Part shown: positions 6,874 to 64,000 of the stretch, in pieces
Position numbering within the stretch: position 1 is the stretch's first letter
Layout of the letters: each line of letters starts with the position of its first letter
DNA from: a virus
DNA length: 64,000 bases
Virus record (IMG/VR): IMGVR_UViG_3300020202_000062
Span: 94,929-158,928 of that record
Reading direction: 5' to 3' (one strand)
Notes under the pieces: generated by a model
The model's database searches: none
The model's input: the letters and a program-made list of their open reading frames with translations, nothing else
What the model was told of the DNA's origin: nothing
Position numbers and translations under genes: made by a program

Positions 6874-9800
6874 TAAGTCCAACTCCTACCATGGAGATCT
6901 TCCAACTTATATCTTACACCAGCGGTGATGTTACGCTCAATAACGTTGATGATCTCCTGCTCCTTCGGGAACTGAGTCTTTAGTTCCTCTGGCAGACGGA
7001 TGATAACGAAACCACCCTTCTGATAGGAGACCCCTCCACCAAAACCGATATCCCAGTATCCAATTGACTCAGACACCATACGACGAATCTCTTCTAGGTT
7101 CAGAGAATCCTTTGCTCCACCACCACGGCGGCGAGTATCTAGAATCACCAGATCATTGATATCTAGAGCGGGTGCGATATATACCACACCCAACTGGACT
7201 GCCAACGGATCGTACTCTGGATCTAGAGGATCGAAGATATTAGTATCCATCCTAAAGCGCAAAGTCCTTGTGTTGACTGAGTCTGTTATCACACTTCCGT
7301 TTGAATCCTTCACAAAGGCTGGGACGATGTAGATGTAGACTGGGCGACCAACTAGGTTTCTTGTGTTGCCTGGGTTGGGGTTCAAGTTGAGGTAGCGCCC
7401 GTCGTATTGCTTAAAGTTGTAGACTGAACGCTTAGTCGTGTAATCAACCTTAACGAGATTAGCCTCATCTGACGCTAATGGGGAAGCCAAAGTGATCTCG
7501 CCGGTCGAAGCATTGTAGTCTGCAATGTCGGGCCAAGATAACTCGGTCCATGGAGATGATGCTGTCGACCTCGTGTATACCTTTAGGGCCGGACGAACTG
7601 GATCAGCATATGAAGAACTGACGTTGCTCGGTTCCTTAACCATCAGCAGCGGTGCCTGACGTAGTTGAATTGTAGTTTCGTCAATTACCACAGGATGTTC
7701 ACCCTTGATATCTACGTTTGGTCGACCGTGTAGAGTTGACCATCCACCCAACTCCGACTCTGGAATTGAGTAAAACGCACGTACATCTGAACCCTGATAT
7801 GAACCCAAGTATCCATCAAGTGGTCCTTGGTTGCGTGGGCGGATCTTTACCTTACGGTTGAAGCTACCAATGCGAACTGGCACAGGCCAAACGTCAGCGG
7901 CACCTAGGTTCTCTGGAAGCGGCTCAATCTGGATCTGTGCACCAGACTTAACCTTCACACCGTAAACAGGCATCGCCCAGCGGAATGGGATCTTGGGGGC
8001 ATCTGCCGAAACAGGTAGTGTGTTGGTTGTGTTCAGTTCGTAGTTTGAGATAACGCCGACATATACGTTTTCGGGTCCGCGGTCTAGATATTCCATGTAA
8101 GTCATTTCTGGAATACCTGAACTATTGACAATGAATTCCTTCTTGCGCTTGTCGTAGAATCCTACAAACACAGAAGCATCGTTTGTGGTAAGATCCACAC
8201 TTAGGCTCATGTAATGACGCTGAGTTTCATTTGTTCCTACCGATGTAGGCATGGCGGGGAATCCGGCTGGTTTACCGTCCGCATCGCACAGTAACTTGAT
8301 GCCATCAGTCTTCCTGATCCATCCTGATTCTGGTGCTATGCGACGATTTCCATTCTCGTCCATTGAGTACCATGTTTCACTTGAGCCTGGCTCATACTCG
8401 GGACCGAATGTGTATCGACTATTGACGTGATTAACCACGATATTGTTACGTAGTCTAATAAGACCACTTGAAGTTGCACCGACGATAGAAACCTTTGGGT
8501 TGTTTACTGTAATGTTTGTCCAGTTTACATCACTTAAGGTTCCCGAAGCGTAATCGTGAGGGTTAGCCTGTACCGTGGTGTCGTATCCACTACGCACAAC
8601 AACGTTACGTCCTGAGGCGTTGATTGGATAATTGTTGATGGTTACTTGCCTAACTACCTCACGGCGCTCTGTCTTCTTGCCCTTGCCGTAGATCAAGATA
8701 TCCTTGATACCCAGCATGCGCGAATCGCCCCAGCCCGACTTACCATTCTGACCAACACCAACAATAACAACGTTGCCTTCATATGGTCCTACGGGGAAGT
8801 ATGTACCGGGTCCATCTGGGATAGGTAAGCCTAGGCTTGTTACTCTAGCCTTGCCCATATCATAACCACCAAGATGGAATGGACCGGGAGCAGAATGGGT
8901 CTTAACGTCAATAGCGTGGAGAAGCATCTGCTTGCTGTTTCCCTCAAGGTAGGGGGTAATCTTTACTCCGTGGATCTTGTATCTGTCGTCAAGTTCTACA
9001 GAGAATACGTCCCAAATATTGCCTGGGCTATTCTTCAGATCTGATCTCTTGGCATAGTATGTCTGAGCATTCCAGTCAGAGATGTGCTTCTTCATAATGC
9101 GGCCCTTTGGCCAATCGTAAAACTTTGTGTAGTCCCTACTACTAGTCGGACCTACTAGGCTTCCCAGATTGATTACTTGATATCCGATAGCAGCCCAAGT
9201 CTCGGCGTCTACTACTCCATTGCGGAATCGTAAATGGCATTTAGTTTGGAACTGCTTGATGGCCTCTTCGGTTTTCTTACCATTGGAACTATTATCGTAG
9301 CGACCATTAACCTCTAGGTATTCGGTGTTCTTTAGGAACCCGAAGAACTTCAGTTTGTTCATCGTCATCTGGACGAACTTAACCCAATCTGAAATGTTCC
9401 CCGAGCCACCTTTCTCTAATCTTACGGTCGCTCCCCAAAATGGCCAACTCAAAAGACCACCTGCTAAGGTGCCCTTTTCATCGCCGTAATAGTTATCATC
9501 CTGCCAAGTACGAAGGTAGTTGGGATGCTTAGTGCCCTGATCGAACGCACGTCCAGAAGTAAAGGTGGTCTTGTTCTTGCCGTGAGAAGACCATGACATG
9601 ATGATTTCTGTATCATCATCGACAGTTACATTCTCGTATTCTGTAACCTCACGGGTTAACTTAGCAGTTCCAGAAGCAGTCCAGTCTACAGTCTCTTCTG
9701 TTGAATCTTGAGCAGTTGCGTTGTAGTTTACTCGCACCTGTACGCCATATGGTTTTGGTGGGTATTCGCGGTAAACGTATTGACCCTCTTCGAAATCGCC

Positions 9801-12050
9801 AGTTACTAACTCTTCCCTAATTACGTGAGGACCGAGGTCAATCGGTACTTCGAACTTTGGAGTGTATGCTATGGTCCAGGCGGCAGGAATAACGCTGTCA
9901 CCAAGATCCTCTGGAACTTCTACATTAGGGTTAGTTACCTCAATCTGATAGGTTCTTGTTGCTCCACGAACGCGCTCTAAATCAGCAGCAGAGATGCTAG
10001 AATCAATGATTTGCTTAAGTGTCTGCTCTGAAAGTATGCGCTGCCATACGTTTGTGGGAGTTGCTGATGCAGTTGTGAGAGATACGAACCTATTGGCGTC
10101 CTTCTCGCGCTGTGATAACGCCTCTCCATCAATAACCCATGAAGCCTTCCAAGGCGAAGAGAATGTCCATGAGGTTGAGTAGTCTGTCTCATCCCTTCCA
10201 TCTAAGGCGCGATCTTTGACGGCCAGAAGGCAGAGATTGTAGAAGAACTTGTACGCACCCTCTACGGTGCTTGAATTAACATAACGGTTGTAGTCTGCCC
10301 TTGAAACTTCGTGCCCAGCAGTATCGAATCGATTACGTGCAACACGCTTACCGGTTACATGAGAGAACAGCATGTTAACTGCCTCAAGTGAACCGATCGT
10401 AGAGAAGATCAAATGCCCACCATTTAAGGTTGGCTTGTGTAAGAGACACGGCTTGTACTGACCAGAGTTATTCTGGGCTTCCATAAGTACGATGTAGTCA
10501 CCTGGGTAATCTAAGATGTACTGGCAGTAGCCATCCCCGAATGTTCCATATCCACCGTTCTTATATGGTGATATTGAGTTGTATTCATCGTCTGAGCCGT
10601 CATTAAAGTTCCATCCACCGTACTCTTGATCTGCGTTCCACAAGAAGTACTCGTCATTCTTTGGTCGGATGGTACCTCCATCGATCCATCCATAGTCGCC
10701 TTCTTCGGAGATACGGCTAGCGTCAGCGGCATTAACGGCACATGTAGTCTCGATACCGAGTCCCTCTGGGACGGTGTGGTTGTGCATGTCAATGATAAGA
10801 GTCTTTCCTAGTTGTTCGGTGAAGTATCTGATCTTCTGCATGTACGGCTGGAAGTCGAATGAAAGCACCCTTGGGCACCACAGTAGTATGTCGAATTTCC
10901 TTAGGTCGCTGTAACTAATATCATCAAAGTCAACGGTCCAGTAATCTTCGTCTTCCTGGTCATCGACAGATGCAGTATCTTCCTCGTCGGTGTGTAGAGG
11001 ATTGATGAACTGAATCTCGGTGGCGTTGTAATCACTACGCATGAGATTGAGGAATGCGTAGGTGGCATCGCTGTGTCTATTTCCGTCGGTGATGATAACA
11101 CCGGCTTTGATGGCTGCGGCTTCCTTGGATGGATCTACTGTGTAGTTCTCTGTGAAGCTAGCCTTTACTCTCCATCTGAACAGTTGGAAGATGCGCGGAT
11201 CAGCCATAGCCTTCTTGGGCACAAAGATGCGATATCCTTCTACGTCCGGATGAGGCTCACCTAGGATCTGTTCCTTCAGGGTGGCTGGCTTTGTTGAGTA
11301 CCACTTCTTGTTGCGGTTGTTTAGATCTACTACGTCAGACTCTTCTGGCCTGTATGAGTAGTATGCCTGAGGATTTAGGATCTCTTTGTATGAGAGTTCC
11401 TGATTCTTCAACTTGCCGTCAGTGCCTACCTCGACCTTATTGTAGGTTAGGTACAGGTTCTCGTTGTCGTCTACATCCACAAAAGCCCAGACACGATAAG
11501 CGTCTGTAGTTTGGTCGGTATCTTCAACTGTGGTATTTGCTGGTGTTATGCGGATTTTGTATCGCGCCCTACCCTGCTCATCTACATAGTCACGCCCATC
11601 GGCGTCTACCACTTTGATGTCTTCAAGTTCGAAAGTCCTTAGTTCTGATCCTAAGGTCAACCCCTGAAAGTCTACATGGAAGTAACGGCTTACGTGGACG
11701 TAAGGCAAGATTGAGTCTGATGTGTACTCAGATCCTGGGGTGGATAAGAAGTCTTCATCTATTGTGAATACGTCAGCGACAGCAGGGAACTCGTCCTCCA
11801 CTATCTGATTACCGCTCTCGTCCTCTAGAATGCCCATTCGGTTGGCATACATGATTCGATACTGGTCTGCTACTGACACAGTGTTCTCTTCGACCACATT
11901 TGATGTGTCGACAATTACCACATTCTTAGATGGGGTCAGTGATGGCGATTGAATCCAGGCAAGATTGACAGCATCCTCGGGGACTCTTACGCCTCGCCTA
12001 AATGCCTTTTCATTACCTTCGGTACTTCTGTCTTCAAACGCCTTCATCAC
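6873..12050 (-). CDS. Giant baseplate protein with a peptidoglycan-binding domain
   Basis: This 1725-residue protein has adjacent GTG (12048-12050) and ATG (12045-12047) starts; either could be used. Residues about 315-560 resemble a Rossmann or class I glutamine-amidotransferase-like fold (GVIITDGNRHSD, FDILLWCPR, GKTLIIDMHN), but no catalytic Cys-His pair is obvious. Residues about 880-958 match a PG_binding_1 domain (YLEVNGRYDNSSNGKKTEEA, IKQFQ, VDAETWAAIGYQ). Residues about 1017-1120 look like a discoidin-type beta sandwich. The C-terminal 60 residues include a Gly-rich loop and an amphipathic strand set. Its neighbours are baseplate components. I infer a large baseplate plate or arm protein that touches the cell wall. 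The amidotransferase-like fold is a weak call. Confidence 0.6.
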   Translation of the reverse strand: MMKAFEDRSTEGNEKAFRRGVRVPEDAVNLAWIQSPSLTPSKNVVIVDTSNVVEENTVSVADQYRIMYANRMGILEDESGNQIVEDEFPAVADVFTIDEDFLSTPGSEYTSDSILPYVHVSRYFHVDFQGLTLGSELRTFELEDIKVVDADGRDYVDEQGRARYKIRITPANTTVEDTDQTTDAYRVWAFVDVDDNENLYLTYNKVEVGTDGKLKNQELSYKEILNPQAYYSYRPEESDVVDLNNRNKKWYSTKPATLKEQILGEPHPDVEGYRIFVPKKAMADPRIFQLFRWRVKASFTENYTVDPSKEAAAIKAGVIITDGNRHSDATYAFLNLMRSDYNATEIQFINPLHTDEEDTASVDDQEDEDYWTVDFDDISYSDLRKFDILLWCPRVLSFDFQPYMQKIRYFTEQLGKTLIIDMHNHTVPEGLGIETTCAVNAADASRISEEGDYGWIDGGTIRPKNDEYFLWNADQEYGGWNFNDGSDDEYNSISPYKNGGYGTFGDGYCQYILDYPGDYIVLMEAQNNSGQYKPCLLHKPTLNGGHLIFSTIGSLEAVNMLFSHVTGKRVARNRFDTAGHEVSRADYNRYVNSSTVEGAYKFFYNLCLLAVKDRALDGRDETDYSTSWTFSSPWKASWVIDGEALSQREKDANRFVSLTTASATPTNVWQRILSEQTLKQIIDSSISAADLERVRGATRTYQIEVTNPNVEVPEDLGDSVIPAAWTIAYTPKFEVPIDLGPHVIREELVTGDFEEGQYVYREYPPKPYGVQVRVNYNATAQDSTEETVDWTASGTAKLTREVTEYENVTVDDDTEIIMSWSSHGKNKTTFTSGRAFDQGTKHPNYLRTWQDDNYYGDEKGTLAGGLLSWPFWGATVRLEKGGSGNISDWVKFVQMTMNKLKFFGFLKNTEYLEVNGRYDNSSNGKKTEEAIKQFQTKCHLRFRNGVVDAETWAAIGYQVINLGSLVGPTSSRDYTKFYDWPKGRIMKKHISDWNAQTYYAKRSDLKNSPGNIWDVFSVELDDRYKIHGVKITPYLEGNSKQMLLHAIDVKTHSAPGPFHLGGYDMGKARVTSLGLPIPDGPGTYFPVGPYEGNVVIVGVGQNGKSGWGDSRMLGIKDILIYGKGKKTERREVVRQVTINNYPINASGRNVVVRSGYDTTVQANPHDYASGTLSDVNWTNITVNNPKVSIVGATSSGLIRLRNNIVVNHVNSRYTFGPEYEPGSSETWYSMDENGNRRIAPESGWIRKTDGIKLLCDADGKPAGFPAMPTSVGTNETQRHYMSLSVDLTTNDASVFVGFYDKRKKEFIVNSSGIPEMTYMEYLDRGPENVYVGVISNYELNTTNTLPVSADAPKIPFRWAMPVYGVKVKSGAQIQIEPLPENLGAADVWPVPVRIGSFNRKVKIRPRNQGPLDGYLGSYQGSDVRAFYSIPESELGGWSTLHGRPNVDIKGEHPVVIDETTIQLRQAPLLMVKEPSNVSSSYADPVRPALKVYTRSTASSPWTELSWPDIADYNASTGEITLASPLASDEANLVKVDYTTKRSVYNFKQYDGRYLNLNPNPGNTRNLVGRPVYIYIVPAFVKDSNGSVITDSVNTRTLRFRMDTNIFDPLDPEYDPLAVQLGVVYIAPALDINDLVILDTRRRGGGAKDSLNLEEIRRMVSESIGYWDIGFGGGVSYQKGGFVIIRLPEELKTQFPKEQEIINVIERNITAGVRYKLEDLHGRSWT

Positions 12051-43375: not shown

Positions 43376-44611
43376 TTAGAGTTGAACTGAGACGCTAACT
43401 TCGATATTGCGTAGTTCGAATGCTGGCGTTAGGATGAGATCGATAACGGCCTTATTCTCGGCTCCAATATATGAAACCGTGAAGTCGCTGGCCAATAGTG
43501 CTCCTGCTAACTGCATTGAACGTAGTCCAGACGTGATCTGTGTCTCAAGGGCGTTTCGTGCCTGGATGCTTGATGCCTCACCAACGAATGGCTGAGCAAC
43601 AGTTCTGACGAGTCCAATTGCATCGAAGGCAATTCGAAGAGTCGTTAGACGCTTGAAGTCCGATGTGGTTGGGCTGTAGGTCTGGGCGTCAACCCAGATT
43701 GGGTTCCTGTTGAAATCTACAGCAACTGGAACGACACCCTTGTCAACTAGGTTGGACTGCTGTGTGCGAGTTGGGCTATAGCGCAACTTCTCCACGCGGT
43801 AGATAACCTTGTTGGTTGGTGCTGAGAATGCTGGAAGACTTGCTACAGCACCTGCGTAGTATGCCGCACCATTTGAGTATCCGAACTCATCTGAATATCC
43901 AAGAGGCTTGATTTCGGCAGCCACAACTGAGACGTAGATACCGTTAGTCATTGATGCTCTTGAGTAGAGGTTTGACAGGGCTAGGTGAGTTGACACCTGG
44001 CTGGGGGTCATTGCCTCAGTTGAGCCTGTGTAAGGCTTGATTCCCATGACAGCGAAGCATGGGGTGGCGTTAGCGGTGATGTCTGCAATCTTTGCTGCGA
44101 CCTTGTAGGCCCATGAGTTGGTGCTAGCTGCATTGTCAGCGTGGAAGCCCAACTCTGCGTTGGTAACCGTTGCCCCATCGTCCTCGTATTCACTTGGATG
44201 ACCACCGCGACCCCAAGGTACGATGATATCAGCCTGTGCAGTCTCAACTGCCTCCCACAGAGTATCCCAAAGGCTCACGCCAGAGTTTGCTGCGGTGAAG
44301 GTAGCAGATGAAATTGTACCTGCGCTATGGTTGAACGCTGTATCTGAAGGAAGAGCAACTAGAGTGATTCTCTGTGCTCCACCGGTTGCTAATTCCACAT
44401 AGGCCCTGTGCAGCATTGACCCTTCACCGAAGATATCAATGACATCTTCTTCGCTAGTAGCGTTGTATGGATCTAAATCGGCTACGTCGCCTTCACCATC
44501 GTCAGTATCTCTGGTGCCGATAGCTAGAACGCGAGGTCCTAAAGGAATGTTTGTTCTGTTAAGGATAGTGAACCCATCCTTGATTCTTGTATTGACTCCA
44601 GGGAGTGACAA
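43376..44611 (-). CDS. Tail sheath protein (main candidate)
   Basis: I choose the TTG start at 44609-44611 because GGAGG lies exactly five bases upstream and the protein then begins MSLPGVNTRIKDGF, like other sheaths. A TTG 57 bases earlier lacks a ribosome-binding site. The product has 411 residues. The N-terminal loop and Rossmann-like strands (PRVLAIGTRD, AQRITLVALPS), the central insertion, and the C-terminal domain (IRALG-like LRIAFDAIGLVRTVAQPFVG, ending NIEVSVSVQL) follow the sheath domain order. The sheath contracts to drive the tube into the cell. A larger sheath-type paralogue lies two genes upstream. Confidence 0.8.
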   Translation of the reverse strand: MSLPGVNTRIKDGFTILNRTNIPLGPRVLAIGTRDTDDGEGDVADLDPYNATSEEDVIDIFGEGSMLHRAYVELATGGAQRITLVALPSDTAFNHSAGTISSATFTAANSGVSLWDTLWEAVETAQADIIVPWGRGGHPSEYEDDGATVTNAELGFHADNAASTNSWAYKVAAKIADITANATPCFAVMGIKPYTGSTEAMTPSQVSTHLALSNLYSRASMTNGIYVSVVAAEIKPLGYSDEFGYSNGAAYYAGAVASLPAFSAPTNKVIYRVEKLRYSPTRTQQSNLVDKGVVPVAVDFNRNPIWVDAQTYSPTTSDFKRLTTLRIAFDAIGLVRTVAQPFVGEASSIQARNALETQITSGLRSMQLAGALLASDFTVSYIGAENKAVIDLILTPAFELRNIEVSVSVQL

Positions 44612-44681
44612 CTTAACCTCCAAAGTAATGTGTTTATCTAAGCTATAGATACACCAGGTCAAACTCAATAGTAACCTGAAA

Positions 44682-44757
44682 ATTATACAAGTTTAGTTTT
44701 GACAAGGCGTGGCCCGGAGTGGTAAAGACTAAACTTCTACACAAGGTAGTAGTACCT
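44682..44757 (-). promoter_or_regulatory. Inverted repeat and TATAAT in the gap before the sheath gene
   Basis: The 166-base gap upstream of the sheath start contains a 9-bp inverted repeat (AAGTTTAGT at 44689-44697 and ACTAAACTT at 44728-44736, 30-base loop), a TATAAT on the minus strand at 44682-44687, and a TTGTCA at 44700-44705. The two hexamers are only 12 bases apart, too close for a standard sigma-70 promoter. The 11-mer TAGTAGTACCT at 44747-44757 also occurs near 463. A promoter or leader element for high sheath expression is plausible but unproven. Confidence 0.3.
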
Positions 44758-44777
44758 AGGAGGGGATCATTCCACCT

Positions 44778-45452
44778 TTAATACCAGGATGGAGTTGCCG
44801 AGTACGTGTCGGTCAGATTGGCTACAATCGGCGTAGCACCGTCGTCTGGGGGAGCCATTCCTAAAGTCTGGCCATTTAGATATAGGCGCAGATCAATAAT
44901 GATCTCTGTAAGCCTTCCTTGTGGGATCAGGCGGATCTTCTCTTCCGTCATCTGATAGGCCACAGTCCTAGTCAAAAAGTCCTGTCCATGATCTTTTACA
45001 TCGTTGTCGGGCATTCGTCTTGAGTAGAAGAACTCGGATACACCCATCTCCTTGAAGATTGGAGTGCTCTCAAGCATGAAATTCTCGAATGCCTCTATAG
45101 CCATGTCTGCACGGAAGGGGTCGTCTCTGTCAATGATGGTGAAGGTTACGATATTGACGAACCTCTGGGCTTCTACCCTGTAGGCATTTCCGTCTATAAT
45201 GACTTCTTCTCTAATTCTAGGCTTTGGCTCACTAGCGTGAGACTTCCTAACCTCTAACTTGTGAACGATGGCTGTATTGAATAGCGAATCGTTCACCACA
45301 TCACTTGTAAAGATTGGTGAGTTTGCGTGGTACATCGGAACATCAGGATGACCCTGGTCCCATAGGTAGCGAACCATCTCAAGAAACTCGATATAGGTGA
45401 TATTGGCTTTCGCCTTTGATCTGGGCTGCGGATATCCGCTCTCTCTAATCAT
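44778..45452 (-). CDS. Tail terminator or completion-type protein
   Basis: This 224-residue protein overlaps the first sheath-type gene and lies before the main sheath. It has an alpha/beta pattern with RFVNIVTFTIIDRDDPFRAD and a helix (MAIEAFENFMLES), consistent with tail terminator or tail completion proteins that cap the tube. The C-terminus holds two Ala-Thr-Pro tripeptides (DGATPIVAN and YSATPSWY), the motif abundant in the 1464-residue protein. The family was not firmly recognised. Confidence 0.5.
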   Translation of the reverse strand: MIRESGYPQPRSKAKANITYIEFLEMVRYLWDQGHPDVPMYHANSPIFTSDVVNDSLFNTAIVHKLEVRKSHASEPKPRIREEVIIDGNAYRVEAQRFVNIVTFTIIDRDDPFRADMAIEAFENFMLESTPIFKEMGVSEFFYSRRMPDNDVKDHGQDFLTRTVAYQMTEEKIRLIPQGRLTEIIIDLRLYLNGQTLGMAPPDDGATPIVANLTDTYSATPSWY

Positions 45453-46945
45453 TAGACTCCTGGTCCTACTTCTACTCCAAAGGAGATTTCTCTTACGCCC
45501 ATATATGGACTTAATGAAACCTCAACTAATACACGCCCCTTCTCTAAGGGGTCTTTGATCATATTCAGTTTGTAATCGCGGATATAGTTATTGCGGACCA
45601 TCGAATTCATGAAATCCTTTACCTCACGATTAAACTGAGGATAGTTAACCGTACCGATCGCAGCCCTACCTAGGGCTCGAATATGTTGGATGGTGACGTT
45701 TACAATTCTAATATTACTTACTGACCAGAAGTCAGAACCGTCTGGGGTTAAGGTGTTATCAGTCGCCATAACAATCTGGAATGGCGTTCCCCTCTTTGCT
45801 TTCGGAGTGCGAATTGCGGGGTTTACCTTAGCGTTACATAAGGATGATATCTCTGCCTTGGTTAGATCCCTACCTACTAGGCTCGCCGTATATGGCAACC
45901 GCGAGTATGTGAATCCCTTGTTGACTTCTTTCGAAGCTAAGATCCCTGCAACGCAGGTGGCAACCGACCCAGTATAAGAGAATGGCATTTGGGGTAGTAA
46001 GTTTACTCCCTCGCCAGCACAAATGACTACAAACTTTCCTGAGTCAGTATAGTCATTTAGACGTACATCATTAGCCATAGCCTCGATGTCGTCAGTTGTC
46101 CAATTATCGATTCTTGTGCCTATGAATCCGATACGTGGATTGCCAGTGTTGCTCATTGCGTCTAAGCAGTGATCTGCCAACTGCGTTAAGAAGTCTACGT
46201 CGTGAGCATCATAAAATGGTGCTTCTAGCGGGACGAGTAACTCTACCAAATCCCACTGACGTAGTTCCTCATATGTTGCCTCTAGGCGATCATAGTATTT
46301 CTCATAGAAATTCTTATCGTCCCACTCTGCTCTGGGTGTGGTTCGTGCGGCTAGGTCTGACACGTATTCGCGCATTGGTGCTGCGGCCACTAACCAGATG
46401 TCCCTAGCACCAAGGTTGTAAATCTCAAGAAGGGCACGGACGAGTGGAGACTCAGTATCGGCACCCATCCTATTGATAGCCTCTTGCATGTTAACAACCT
46501 GGTATGGGTCGTTGATTCCCATTCCGTCAGCATGACCGACTAAGAAGATTCGATCTGTCTCACCAAAGCCAAGATCCGTGTAGCGGAAGTTTTCCTTTAT
46601 CACACCGTATCTACGTGGTGCGTCCAAAAGAGTAGACGCCTCTGGGTCTTCTTCGCTTATCTGGATCTCGTCATATTCGTAGGTGGTTTCGCCATCAATG
46701 ACTGCGGTCCACTTACCTGTGTAAATCCCAGGTGTCGCATAAGTAGGAACTTCGTAGTCGTACTGATAGCGACCTAAAGAGAGGCGGGTAATATCACCAG
46801 AAGAATAACTGAAGATATTGGTTACCGACTGTGACGCATTTCGGATGATCTGAAACTGGACACTGGTTGGGTCAGTAAGTGCACCATCACTATCATAAAA
46901 TGATTTAGTAAAGGAGTGAGTATCTCCCAGAATTACAGTATCCAT
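45452..46945 (-). CDS. Sheath-type protein with an N-terminal Ig-like domain
   Basis: This 497-residue protein begins with an Ig-like beta sandwich (about 1-100: GDTHSFTKSFYDSDGALTDP, GRYQYDYEVPTYATPGIYTG). It then reads as a tail sheath (about 105-497): DRIFLVGHADG, NLGARDIWLVAAAP, the central domain with RIGFIGTRID and KFVVICAGEG, and the C-terminal HIRALGRAAIGTVNYPQFN plus YKLNMIKDP. The region after 105 is comparable in order to the smaller sheath gene at 43376-44611. The two may mix in one sheath, or this one may form a special ring such as the sheath end or collar. Ig-like domains on virions often aid surface contact. Confidence 0.65.
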   Translation of the reverse strand: MDTVILGDTHSFTKSFYDSDGALTDPTSVQFQIIRNASQSVTNIFSYSSGDITRLSLGRYQYDYEVPTYATPGIYTGKWTAVIDGETTYEYDEIQISEEDPEASTLLDAPRRYGVIKENFRYTDLGFGETDRIFLVGHADGMGINDPYQVVNMQEAINRMGADTESPLVRALLEIYNLGARDIWLVAAAPMREYVSDLAARTTPRAEWDDKNFYEKYYDRLEATYEELRQWDLVELLVPLEAPFYDAHDVDFLTQLADHCLDAMSNTGNPRIGFIGTRIDNWTTDDIEAMANDVRLNDYTDSGKFVVICAGEGVNLLPQMPFSYTGSVATCVAGILASKEVNKGFTYSRLPYTASLVGRDLTKAEISSLCNAKVNPAIRTPKAKRGTPFQIVMATDNTLTPDGSDFWSVSNIRIVNVTIQHIRALGRAAIGTVNYPQFNREVKDFMNSMVRNNYIRDYKLNMIKDPLEKGRVLVEVSLSPYMGVREISFGVEVGPGV

Positions 46946-59851: not shown

Positions 59852-62173
59852 CTACTCGCCTTGAAGTGCTGCAACCTGCTCCTGGAGTTCTTGAACAGCT
59901 TTAACTAGCAAAGTAACTATAATATTATAAGCTATTCCTTCGGGCTGGCCTTGATTATCTAGAGATACAGATTCTGGAATTGCATCAAACATCTCTTCGG
60001 CAATGAATCCGATATCTTCTCTTTGCTGCGAGATCCATCTAAAACGAGTAGGATTGAGTTCGGCTATCTTACTTAGCGCACTGTATTCAATGGGGCGTAG
60101 GTCTTCCTTCCACCTGATAGATGATCCGTTTGTGTAAGTCCCGCCGATAAGATTGGCGTAGTCACCTGTATCGTAATTAATGAACTGAACTCGGTTATCA
60201 TCCGAAGAACCCTCATCGATAATAATCAAGGTATTAGTTTCTGTGCCATCCGAATCGGCCTGTAGGGCTATTCCTGCAATTTGTCCAGTGCCCCTCGCTT
60301 GCACCGGTAGGTTAGTGGGGCTAGCGTTTCCGGTGCTGATGCTTCCTGTAGAAGCGATCAGTTCGTCACATGTAACATCGCCACTAGCCGTAATTGTCCC
60401 GATGTTGACAAGGTTCCTAGAACTATCAACGATCTGAGTACCGTTAAGTTGATATTGGGAAGTGGCGTTAACTGTCGAAGGAGAGAATGTTCCTGTGGTT
60501 AGGGTGCCCGGAATGTCAACTGTGCCACCTGCACTAATGGTCAACCTATTCGATCCGGCGACTTCCATGAAGATATCCGAGTCCGCCTGGATATACATAT
60601 CTCCACCAGTAGTGGTGTAGATGGTTCCCTCAGTATCAGAACCCGCAAGATCGTACCACTTGATCTTGTTGCTGTTTCCGGTTCCTACGATAAGTTTGAT
60701 GCCAGTGCTAGCATCAATGACGACAGTACCTGCTGAGGCGGTCAGTGTTCCGGACACTGTAAACGAACCCGTGATGTTAGCGTCAGTGGCCGTCAAAGCT
60801 CCAGCAGGTGTGACCTGAAAAACAGTCCCTGATCCAGTGTTGATCTGTCCTGCGGCCGAAACCCTAAATGCAGTTGCTGTTGCATATGTGGATGTTGCAG
60901 GGTTACCCTGCCAGATGTTGCCGCTGTTATCTACGTTGAATCCACCAGAGGAACCAAGGCCAATAACACCCCTTCTGAAGTAAGCGAGTCCATCCGCCGT
61001 CAAGTAGAATGAATCTGTCGAGGCTCCGTCCCACAGCCTGAGGTACTTATTGGCACCTGTGGCGCTTGGGTCGATTTCAAACCTATGAGTTCCACCCGAT
61101 GTTGGGGACTGAAACTTCACTGCGCCCGCAGAAGTTACATACATCGTTGCGTTTGATGTAGACGTTCCGTTCAGGAAGATACCATTACCATCAACATAAA
61201 AGCGTGTGTTGCTTGAGTATGCGATTTGGAACTTGTTCGAGTCCAATGTGATAGCACTTGTGCCTCCCACATTATGCCCCACAATACTGATAGCCCCATT
61301 TTGGAATGTAATTCCATCTTTACTTAGCCGGTAACCTTTTGGTGTCCCGCTAGGAGTGTATCCAAAACTCTGAATGAAACCATTAGTATCGATGATGAAA
61401 GTTTTGGCGGCCCATGTACCCTCAAGGAGGTTGTCTACGGATACCTCTGTTTCAAGCGTCGTACCACTAGCGACTGGGGAGTAACCAGTTGACAACTGAT
61501 CAAACTGATCCCTTACCTTAAAACGGTAATAGTGAGTATCGGTGTCTGAAAGTTCATGGAAGTAAGTATCGGTTCCAGCGAGATCAGCAAGCGTTGACCA
61601 AGAACTCCCATCTAAAGAATGCTCAAGAAGGAATCCCTTATAGTCAAGCAGTCCGTCTGGTGGTATCATCGTGATACTGATACCAGTAAATACACCCACG
61701 AGAATAGGAGCATCTGTTGGATCTGTTGGGTCTTCGTTGCTGTCAGATCCAACCAAAGCCGCTGACTCATTACCGTGAATATCAACAGCCTTTACGGTAA
61801 CCGAAATAGAACTCTGGAGAGAACCAAAGTCAGAAGTGTTTTGATCTCTACTGTATAGGAAGTATGCGTCTGTTACTTCGTAAACTTTCGTAATGGAGTT
61901 GGCCGTAAGGGTAACCTTATATCCCTTTAGGTCCATAAGCGTACTGCCGTCAGTATTTGTGGTTGGCGGCGTCCAAGTTACGATGAAGGCTGTGGCTGAG
62001 AAATTCGTAACAAGGTTGGTTGGTGCGCTAGGAGTACTTTCATCAGACATTGTCTCGAAAGTTAGAGATTCAGACCATTCTGACTGAACGCCTAGATTGT
62101 TGTTAGATCGAACTCGCACCACATAGCGAGAGTCGGGCAATAGATTAGGTAGAACTCTGATCACTTCGGCCAT
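59852..62173 (-). CDS. Tail fibre with FN3 domains and S74 intramolecular chaperone
   Basis: This 773-residue protein begins in the second half of an FN3-like fold (residues 1-45: LPDSRYVVRVRSNNNLGVQS), then has two full FN3 domains (about 50-150 and 155-245). A beta-rich shaft of short Gly/Ser/Thr strands follows (about 250-680). The C-terminal 90 residues are a peptidase S74 chaperone: GSSIRWKEDLRPIEYSAL (Ser/Lys cleavage site), ELNPTRFRW, IGFIAEEM and a final coiled coil (LVKAVQELQEQVAALQGE). The chaperone folds the trimeric fibre and cuts itself off. This is a receptor-binding or side fibre. The odd start is discussed under findings. Confidence 0.8.
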   Translation of the reverse strand: MAEVIRVLPNLLPDSRYVVRVRSNNNLGVQSEWSESLTFETMSDESTPSAPTNLVTNFSATAFIVTWTPPTTNTDGSTLMDLKGYKVTLTANSITKVYEVTDAYFLYSRDQNTSDFGSLQSSISVTVKAVDIHGNESAALVGSDSNEDPTDPTDAPILVGVFTGISITMIPPDGLLDYKGFLLEHSLDGSSWSTLADLAGTDTYFHELSDTDTHYYRFKVRDQFDQLSTGYSPVASGTTLETEVSVDNLLEGTWAAKTFIIDTNGFIQSFGYTPSGTPKGYRLSKDGITFQNGAISIVGHNVGGTSAITLDSNKFQIAYSSNTRFYVDGNGIFLNGTSTSNATMYVTSAGAVKFQSPTSGGTHRFEIDPSATGANKYLRLWDGASTDSFYLTADGLAYFRRGVIGLGSSGGFNVDNSGNIWQGNPATSTYATATAFRVSAAGQINTGSGTVFQVTPAGALTATDANITGSFTVSGTLTASAGTVVIDASTGIKLIVGTGNSNKIKWYDLAGSDTEGTIYTTTGGDMYIQADSDIFMEVAGSNRLTISAGGTVDIPGTLTTGTFSPSTVNATSQYQLNGTQIVDSSRNLVNIGTITASGDVTCDELIASTGSISTGNASPTNLPVQARGTGQIAGIALQADSDGTETNTLIIIDEGSSDDNRVQFINYDTGDYANLIGGTYTNGSSIRWKEDLRPIEYSALSKIAELNPTRFRWISQQREDIGFIAEEMFDAIPESVSLDNQGQPEGIAYNIIVTLLVKAVQELQEQVAALQGE

Positions 62174-62947
62174 TTAGGTTGCTCCACTCATAACACTGGC
62201 CCACTCCACATTGTAAATCTCTTCAGATCCTACAGTTGAATCGATGGGCGTAAGATAACTAACTGCCTGCACATTGACCTCAGCACTAGAAGATCCCGGA
62301 AACTTACGTCCAGTGGCGCGCATCTGGAATAGGTGCTGCCCCTCTGTGAGGTCGTACTTCGTGTAGACAATAGTAGTGCTAGATTCTACGTTGAATAAGT
62401 CAACTTCTTCCCAATCCCCGCCATCTACAGAAACCTCCATTATACCCTTGTCCAATCCAACTTCTGAAGATAGTTTGATCCTCTCACCATAGGTGATGAT
62501 AGACGCAACAGCATCCTTGCTTGATGCCACGCCGTCAACCCAGTGATCTCCAGGACGAGTGTACATGATTCGGTAATCGTCATACCTACGAGTTACTGTC
62601 CATAGATTCTCTGCATAAGTGGGTCGAGTTGGAGCGTTCGTTAGGTTCCAATTCCCGAAGTAAAGGAAGTACTCATCGTTCGAGTCACCCTCGTCTAGAT
62701 TTCCCTCCAAGAAGAATCTGACATACTCATCATCTACCTCGCGAGCAAGGACAGTGTAAGTTGGGGTGGCAGCACCGTTTGAGTGAATAACCTCAACGTC
62801 AGCATAATCTTCGCGAGTTTTGCCTGCGTCGTAATATCCGAGCATGTCAACGGGGACCGTCACGCAATGGCCCTCTAGAACGTCTTCGAATTCATTTGTG
62901 AGTACTAGTTGCCTTCTAAATAGGTATTTAGCATTCCACCAAGACAT
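62174..62947 (-). CDS. DUF2341-like adhesin protein
   Basis: This 257-residue protein resembles DUF2341-type concanavalin-like domains: WWNAKYLFRRQLVLTNEFED at the start, DYADVEVIHSNGAATPTYTV, and SNDEYFLYFGNWNL. Those domains occur in surface adhesins and phage tail proteins and may bind sugar. The C-terminal 80 residues form a beta segment (VEVSVDGGDWEEVDLF). The ATG overlaps the stop of the upstream gene, and the stop abuts the next start. It lies between two genes that appear to share a split FN3 domain. Confidence 0.65.
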   Translation of the reverse strand: MSWWNAKYLFRRQLVLTNEFEDVLEGHCVTVPVDMLGYYDAGKTREDYADVEVIHSNGAATPTYTVLAREVDDEYVRFFLEGNLDEGDSNDEYFLYFGNWNLTNAPTRPTYAENLWTVTRRYDDYRIMYTRPGDHWVDGVASSKDAVASIITYGERIKLSSEVGLDKGIMEVSVDGGDWEEVDLFNVESSTTIVYTKYDLTEGQHLFQMRATGRKFPGSSSAEVNVQAVSYLTPIDSTVGSEEIYNVEWASVMSGAT

Positions 62948-64000
62948 TAGTCCTCCACTCTGTGGATCTGAACTTCATAACCAGCGTCGTCGCCATCCCA
63001 TGCCAATGTTACTTCAATACCAACTGTTCCGGGATTTGTCATTACTGCCCTTTGGGATAATAGCCTAAGGCTAGTCGGAACATCCGGCTGATCTGACGTA
63101 TCCACAGTTGAATTAGGGAGCGTGCCTCCCACAAGGTCAATACCACGAATCTTCTGGGATCCATCTAAACCTGTGTGGGCATGGGTGTTGATGTCAACTC
63201 CATCAATTGTAACACCTGGTTCCACTTCGATGTCGCCCGTGATGGTATCTCCCGCCTTTAGAAGATACTGCTCATGGGCATCATCTGCGTCTCTATCTCT
63301 TAGTTCTGAGTGACTAGAGTTGAATTCATCTACAACCGGCTGAATATTGCTCCAGGTTTCTGTCTCTGTTGGAGTTGGAGGAGTTGGGTTGAACTTAGCC
63401 TTTAGTGGCTTGCCCTTGACTTCTAGGTCTCGAATGGCCTTAACCCAACCGTCCCTGATCTTGAGTTGTTTCTTTAGATCCTCTGTCTTACTGTTGAAGA
63501 TTTCATTGCGGCGCATCTGATCAGCAAGTAGCATCTGTAGGTCGTCGTTTAACTTGGGGTTAGTCTTAGTTACAGACTCTCCCAACATACCCTTGTCTAG
63601 AAGCGCCTGCTCAAAGTCCTTAGTTACAGCCAATCTCATATTCATGGCTGGACCTAAGAATCTCTTGAAGTATGCGTCTGAAAACGTCGTGTGATTCTTT
63701 GTGATTTCTTCTTGTAGAGAGGCGATCTTGTTATTTACTTCATTGAGTCTAACCTTAAAAAGAGCCTGGTATTTTGCGGCTCTTTCTCCATTGATAGAAC
63801 CCAACTCGGAAGCGGAGATTGGAGAGACTTTCCCTCTTTCTTGGTAGATGCTCCGGACATTCCTCGTGTGGCGGAGCGCATTTTCCGCCCAGTCTTGAAG
63901 TAATTCGACTGTCCTCTTCTCTGATGCATCACTTACATCGCCAACGTAGTCATCTAGAAACTCCTCAATGTTAACAGCCTCATGGTGCACTGCCCTTGCT
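62947..64000 (-). CDS. Coiled-coil tail fibre protein (5' end may lie outside the window)
   Basis: The reading frame runs from 62947 to the window end with no stop. A GTG at 63988-63990 would give 347 residues but has AAGGG only two bases upstream, so the true start may be farther right. Residues about 85-200 (counted from that GTG) are coiled-coil. A GDTITGDIEVEPGVTIDGVD segment and THAHTGLDGS follow, as in trimeric tail-fibre shafts. The C-terminal 45 residues (VPTSLRLLSQRAV, AGYEVQIHRVED) look like the first half of an FN3 domain. It is probably the first fibre gene of this operon. Confidence 0.65.
   Translation of the reverse strand, partial: ARAVHHEAVNIEEFLDDYVGDVSDASEKRTVELLQDWAENALRHTRNVRSIYQERGKVSPISASELGSINGERAAKYQALFKVRLNEVNNKIASLQEEITKNHTTFSDAYFKRFLGPAMNMRLAVTKDFEQALLDKGMLGESVTKTNPKLNDDLQMLLADQMRRNEIFNSKTEDLKKQLKIRDGWVKAIRDLEVKGKPLKAKFNPTPPTPTETETWSNIQPVVDEFNSSHSELRDRDADDAHEQYLLKAGDTITGDIEVEPGVTIDGVDINTHAHTGLDGSQKIRGIDLVGGTLPNSTVDTSDQPDVPTSLRLLSQRAVMTNPGTVGIEVTLAWDGDDAGYEVQIHRVED

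Follow-up and report, generated by a model that had tools for sequence, protein, structure and literature searches.

A putative fibronectin type III domain divided between two non-adjacent tail genes in several groups of phages

Tail genes at the end of the contig

The window, that is, the whole stretch of DNA analysed here, is the final 64 kb of a 158,928-base virus contig. Close to its end lie a putative adaptor or fibre-anchor gene (gene 1), a middle gene (gene 2) and a tail fibre gene (gene 3), all on the minus strand (Table 1). The 5' end of gene 1 is open because the window and the contig end at the same place; full-length relatives in loci L029 and L030 have 510 and 541 aa, respectively. 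The ORFs and their junctions agree with the original prediction, made from the sequence alone, that a 257-residue gene lies exactly between two outer genes that are in different reading frames, and the S74 domain predicted for the fibre gene is present. The same prediction described gene 2 as DUF2341-like. A Pfam search of gene 2 returned neither DUF2341 nor any other family, and no family was found in PHROG, so that label reflects resemblance only.

Table 1 Features of the adaptor–fibre region (window coordinates)
Feature	Position	Strand	Description and basis
Gene 1, putative adaptor/fibre-anchor protein	62947..63990	-	347 aa counted from the first GTG
Putative FN3 first half, strands A-B-C	62950..63081	-	Final 44 residues of gene 1, VPTSLRLLSQ...AGYEVQIHRVED; hhalign and AF2 of the Trina homologue
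TAATG, gene 1 stop/gene 2 start	62945..62949	-	1-base overlap, translational coupling; sequence
Gene 2, middle protein	62174..62947	-	257 aa, beta-rich; ORF call
Gene 2 TAA followed by gene 3 ATG	62171..62176	-	In frame, zero gap; sequence
Gene 3, tail fibre	59852..62173	-	773 aa; ORF, tblastn, Pfam
Putative FN3 second half, strands E-F-G	62051..62173	-	First 41 residues of gene 3, Tyr corner LxPxxxY; Pfam fn3, alignment, AF2
Complete FN3-like domain after the half domain in gene 3	61724..62035	-	AF2 pLDDT 83-93, alignment
Peptidase_S74 intramolecular chaperone domain, C-terminal in gene 3	59966..60124	-	Pfam PF13884, 44 bits (cut-off 22)

Elsewhere in the window, two genes at 43376-46945 resemble tail sheath paralogues. 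The nearest named relatives of the window's portal protein are those of Moorella phage MTATph1 and Bacillus phage KLEB27-3, and two sheath genes are annotated in those records too.

The two halves of a fibronectin type III (FN3) domain had been proposed to lie at the end of gene 1 and at the start of gene 3. The gene 3 half is recognizable by itself: residues 8-39 align with positions 53-83 only of Pfam fn3 (PF00041), at 20.9 bits alone (cut-off 25), and the whole protein scores 31.5 bits. As in other FN3 domains, the gene 3 head has E, F and G strands, a Tyr corner and an SxWS motif. The tail of gene 1 has no Pfam match alone; joined to the gene 3 head, it gives a match to fn3 positions 26-83 at 23.1 bits. 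Each half contains three alternating-hydrophobic blocks. When scored against an HMM of complete FN3 domains from phages, the window's gene 3 head rises from 7.5 to 11.6 once the real gene 1 tail is joined to it, a value reached by 2 of 300 shuffled tails. This test is clear for the window and for L021 and weak for several other loci. A profile of the gene 1 tail is weakly FN3-like when compared with phage FN3 domains (E 0.022), aligning at the correct C strand, and the joined profile spans the junction when aligned to the prolactin receptor FN3, one of the cytokine-receptor FN3 domains. Between strands C and E, about 8 residues are missing from the joined domain, which thus probably lacks strand C'; this corrects the full FN3 of about 88 residues that had been expected. 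The HMM scores agree in direction with a split FN3 but are weak, and we rejected them as sequence-only proof that the gene 1 tail belongs to an FN3 domain, given the E-value and the uneven shuffle tests. Decisive is the comparison with unrelated phages, which have these halves at the corresponding gene ends.

Recurrence of the divided layout in other phages

The split FN3 recurs in approximately 60 loci that we read, from Streptomyces phages (Stanwilliamsviridae), Rhodococcus phages (Trinavirus and relatives) and myoviruses of the window type. These relatives came from a search of a phage collection with gene 3 and from a portal search. In tblastn with gene 3, Streptomyces phages match residues 7-264 (E 2e-15), and the matches begin no more than a few codons from those phages' own gene starts. 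Their loci have the same layout, in which a middle gene of 264-298 aa separates a small gene (111-139 aa in annotated records) from a large fibre gene. The typical C-terminus encoded by the small gene is ...Q.V...G...V.V......YDVRITK, and the fibre protein begins much like M.RILLRDL.PG..Y.IQ.RA. The layout is seen in Samistivirus, Gilsonvirus, Coruscantvirus, Tomasvirus and Wakandavirus, and also in Trinavirus (Trina, NiceHouse) and the Rhodococcus equi phages Francesca and Dorin.

A query in which the two halves were joined matched 133 phage records. The best of these match as two pieces flanking the middle gene, and none of the best 60 of the 133 contains a one-piece match joining the halves. 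A second joined query, made from Trina, matched 145 records with the same two-piece behaviour. Mycobacterium phage Halley gp43 was considered as a joined relative and rejected, as it carries an ordinary whole FN3.

Closer relatives of the window phage were found via the portal protein (53-56% identity) and via gene 1, and the split is present in three lineages of this myovirus kin. L029 and L031 have it together with a gene 2 resembling that of the window, and the clade of L027 and L030 has it with both halves readable in 25 contigs. In L031, an ORF between the fibre gene and the portal gene (9465-9995) resembles a homing endonuclease of the HNH/endonuclease VII type (CAICK...DHDH...CVRGLLC) and is absent from L029. 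In L033 (575-767) the head of the fibre gene is frame-shifted (MAIIKKTIQNLKPR, then another frame), probably through an assembly or sequencing error. A scan of a viral contig collection with the single proteins of genes 1, 2 and 3 gave no match, a scan of genome contigs gave no relative, and no fibre is annotated beside the portal in the distant portal relatives from Moorella, Bacillus and Acinetobacter phages. We obtained 38 distinct pairs of gene 1 tail and gene 3 head, drawn from few clades and too few for covariation analysis.

In the L030-type clade, reading the middle gene requires, in every contig examined, a +1 frameshift at CCN-YTR-AAR-AGR-CGG-AAT, about 28 codons past the ATG (L047, L049, L050, L052, L053, L057, L061, L068, L070 and L072-L075). 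Substitutions concentrate at the third codon position, in frame 0 upstream of this site (113/144/251) and in the +1 frame downstream (1074/556/317), a pattern that favours a conserved programmed +1 frameshift over sequencing error.

The gene 1 tails of the two phage groups align end to end in hhalign over 45 columns, with a score of 28.5 (E 1.4e-5). None of 200 column shuffles reached that score (mean 8.8, maximum 17.2). Between the same groups, the rest of gene 1 has no significant similarity (hhalign E 0.18), and the middle genes have no detectable similarity (hhalign E 0.4). Homologues of gene 2 were found in L029, L031 and L030; none is detectable in the Streptomyces and Rhodococcus phages, where a different middle gene is present (phrog_9983, tail). 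Similarity between the groups is confined to the gene 3 head and to roughly the last 45 residues of gene 1. The two separated gene ends are thus shared, while what lies between them is not detectably similar, and we conclude at the sequence level that the halves are co-conserved across divergent genomes. The gene 1 stop falls after strand C, and upstream of gene 3 there is room for 0-16 codons before an in-frame stop; judged from these reading frames, neither half can be completed in cis.

Predicted folding of the halves and alternative explanations

In Trina (L025), genes 1 and 3 are in one frame, so that a chain read through the natural DNA carries both halves. This chain, with stops represented as serine and approximately 265 nonsense residues between the halves, was used as input for AlphaFold2 (AF2). 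The gene 1 tail was modelled at a pLDDT of about 90 (strands 20-29, 35-43 and 49-57) and the gene 3 head at 92-94 (strands 324-331, 336-345 and 359-362), with the nonsense spacer at about 30. The strand order along the chain is A, B, C, E, F, G. A Foldseek search with this model gave no significant full-domain match (best E 0.2), and its partial matches were mostly to FN3 or Ig-like proteins; such an outcome is expected with the 265-residue spacer, and we consider the search uninformative and not supportive. In a second AF2 job, gene 2 and gene 3 of the window were read through the TAA without gene 1. Here the gene 3 half had a pLDDT of only 52-63 and its first strand was modelled as a helix, whereas the next, complete FN3 of the same model reached 83-93. 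The prediction is therefore that the two halves fold together and that the gene 3 half does not fold alone, in a comparison with and without the gene 1 tail that spans two different phages and different alignments.

The second model also bears on a rival partner for the gene 3 half: the C-terminus of gene 2, rather than gene 1, could complete it. A single TAA is all that parts gene 2 from gene 3 in the window, where they share a frame. Pfam fn3 reads through this TAA at 62057-62263 (positions 18-83, 23.2 bits), a gain no smaller than that from the gene 1 tail. However, AF2 leaves the gene 3 half unfolded with gene 2 attached, which is evidence for the gene 1 tail, and not gene 2, as the completing partner. 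In addition, 24 of 300 shuffles reached the score with the gene 2 tail, compared with 2 of 300 for the gene 1 tail. The gene 3 heads are alike between the two phage groups, whereas no similarity was detected between the middle genes. We regard gene 2 as an unlikely partner.

The original prediction attributed the arrangement to insertion of a gene into an older, fused fibre gene. A recent insertion of this kind, leaving two fragments, would account for halves that make up one domain and are parted by stops and a change of frame. In the 145 GenBank records that match and in the loci read, each case shows either split halves or an uninformative match, and no joined relative was found; distant groups share the split with other middle genes. 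The insertion is thus not supported, and we give a recent one little credence. Since the split is common to groups with middle genes that are not detectably similar, it appears to be old and maintained. An ancient single insertion, with later replacement of the middle gene, is a possible origin.

We also considered that the two ends do not form one domain and are separate small beta elements, for example with the gene 3 heads packed against one another, three to a trimer. The gene 1 tail is only weakly FN3-like by sequence and the fibre is probably trimeric, both of which would fit this explanation, but the high-confidence joint fold in Trina, the co-conservation of the halves and the low pLDDT of the gene 3 half when gene 1 is absent make it very improbable. 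Finally, halves that fit end to end could be joined into one continuous chain by an intron, translational bypass or splicing, but the chance of this is close to nil: a whole coding gene, differing between phages, would have to serve as the 'intron', no Rfam intron was found in the region and we know of no precedent for a translational hop of approximately 770 nt.

A possible latch between fibre and tail adaptor

We propose, with a probability of roughly 0.8, that gene 1 and gene 3 encode the halves of one FN3 domain that is completed in trans and clips the S74-processed fibre onto a tail adaptor. The AF2 prediction and the conservation of both ends lend good support to the earlier suggestion that the halves probably pair as separate chains. 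The C-terminus of gene 1 would supply strands A, B and C and the N-terminus of gene 3 strands E, F and G. The fibre, probably a trimer in view of its S74 domain, would meet an adaptor whose C-termini bear the complementary half, and each pair of halves would fold into one FN3 sandwich that locks the fibre to the tail. The middle gene product may be a co-assembled tail protein that varies between phages. In the Streptomyces phages, the adaptor consists of little beyond an N-terminal segment, an acidic linker and the half domain, a make-up that fits a docking peptide. Gene 1 is translated with its half last and gene 3 with its half first, and the operon has coupled start and stop codons, which makes it plausible that the halves pair while translation is under way or soon after. 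The exposed half domain and the translationally coupled genes would make docking a part of ordered assembly. We infer the trimeric state, the adaptor role and the place of docking in assembly.

Folds completed between chains are already known. In the donor-strand complementation of chaperone-usher pili, an incomplete Ig-like fold is completed by another chain during assembly; there, one strand of a pilin is missing, whereas here it would be half of an FN3 sandwich. Two engineered fragments of one FN3 reportedly associate with high affinity and restore the fold, in work of 2005 attributed to Dutta et al. That complementation was engineered in human fibronectin, whereas the one proposed here is natural, belongs to a phage tail and has a gene between the halves. 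The fibre LtfA of the T5-like phage DT57C is attached by its N-terminus, which donates strands to LtfC, a collar protein (PMC10713586). In that case the sheets of LtfC are complete and are extended by one or two strands, whereas here each chain would carry an incomplete half domain. Compared with FN3 domains in general, the domain proposed here differs in consisting of two polypeptides from non-adjacent genes and in the apparent absence of strand C'. We found no account, for phages or otherwise, of a natural FN3 encoded in two genes in the literature searched.

Half-FN3 ends of non-adjacent genes may represent a general, exchangeable plug-and-socket of tailed phages that acts as a docking checkpoint, with the middle gene product as a third member of the joint. 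We put the chances of this broader reading at about even. The checkpoint would arise because the fold exists only once adaptor and fibre meet.

FN3 domains are normally single-chain beads. If the proposal is true, a natural FN3 split kept in distinct phage groups shows that the domain can also serve as an intermolecular latch, and a natural pair of split-domain halves is a possible protein tool. It would also yield a concrete hypothesis of fibre docking on adaptors for over 100 sequenced Streptomyces and Rhodococcus phages, whose records give these genes no annotation beyond 'hypothetical' or 'minor tail protein'.
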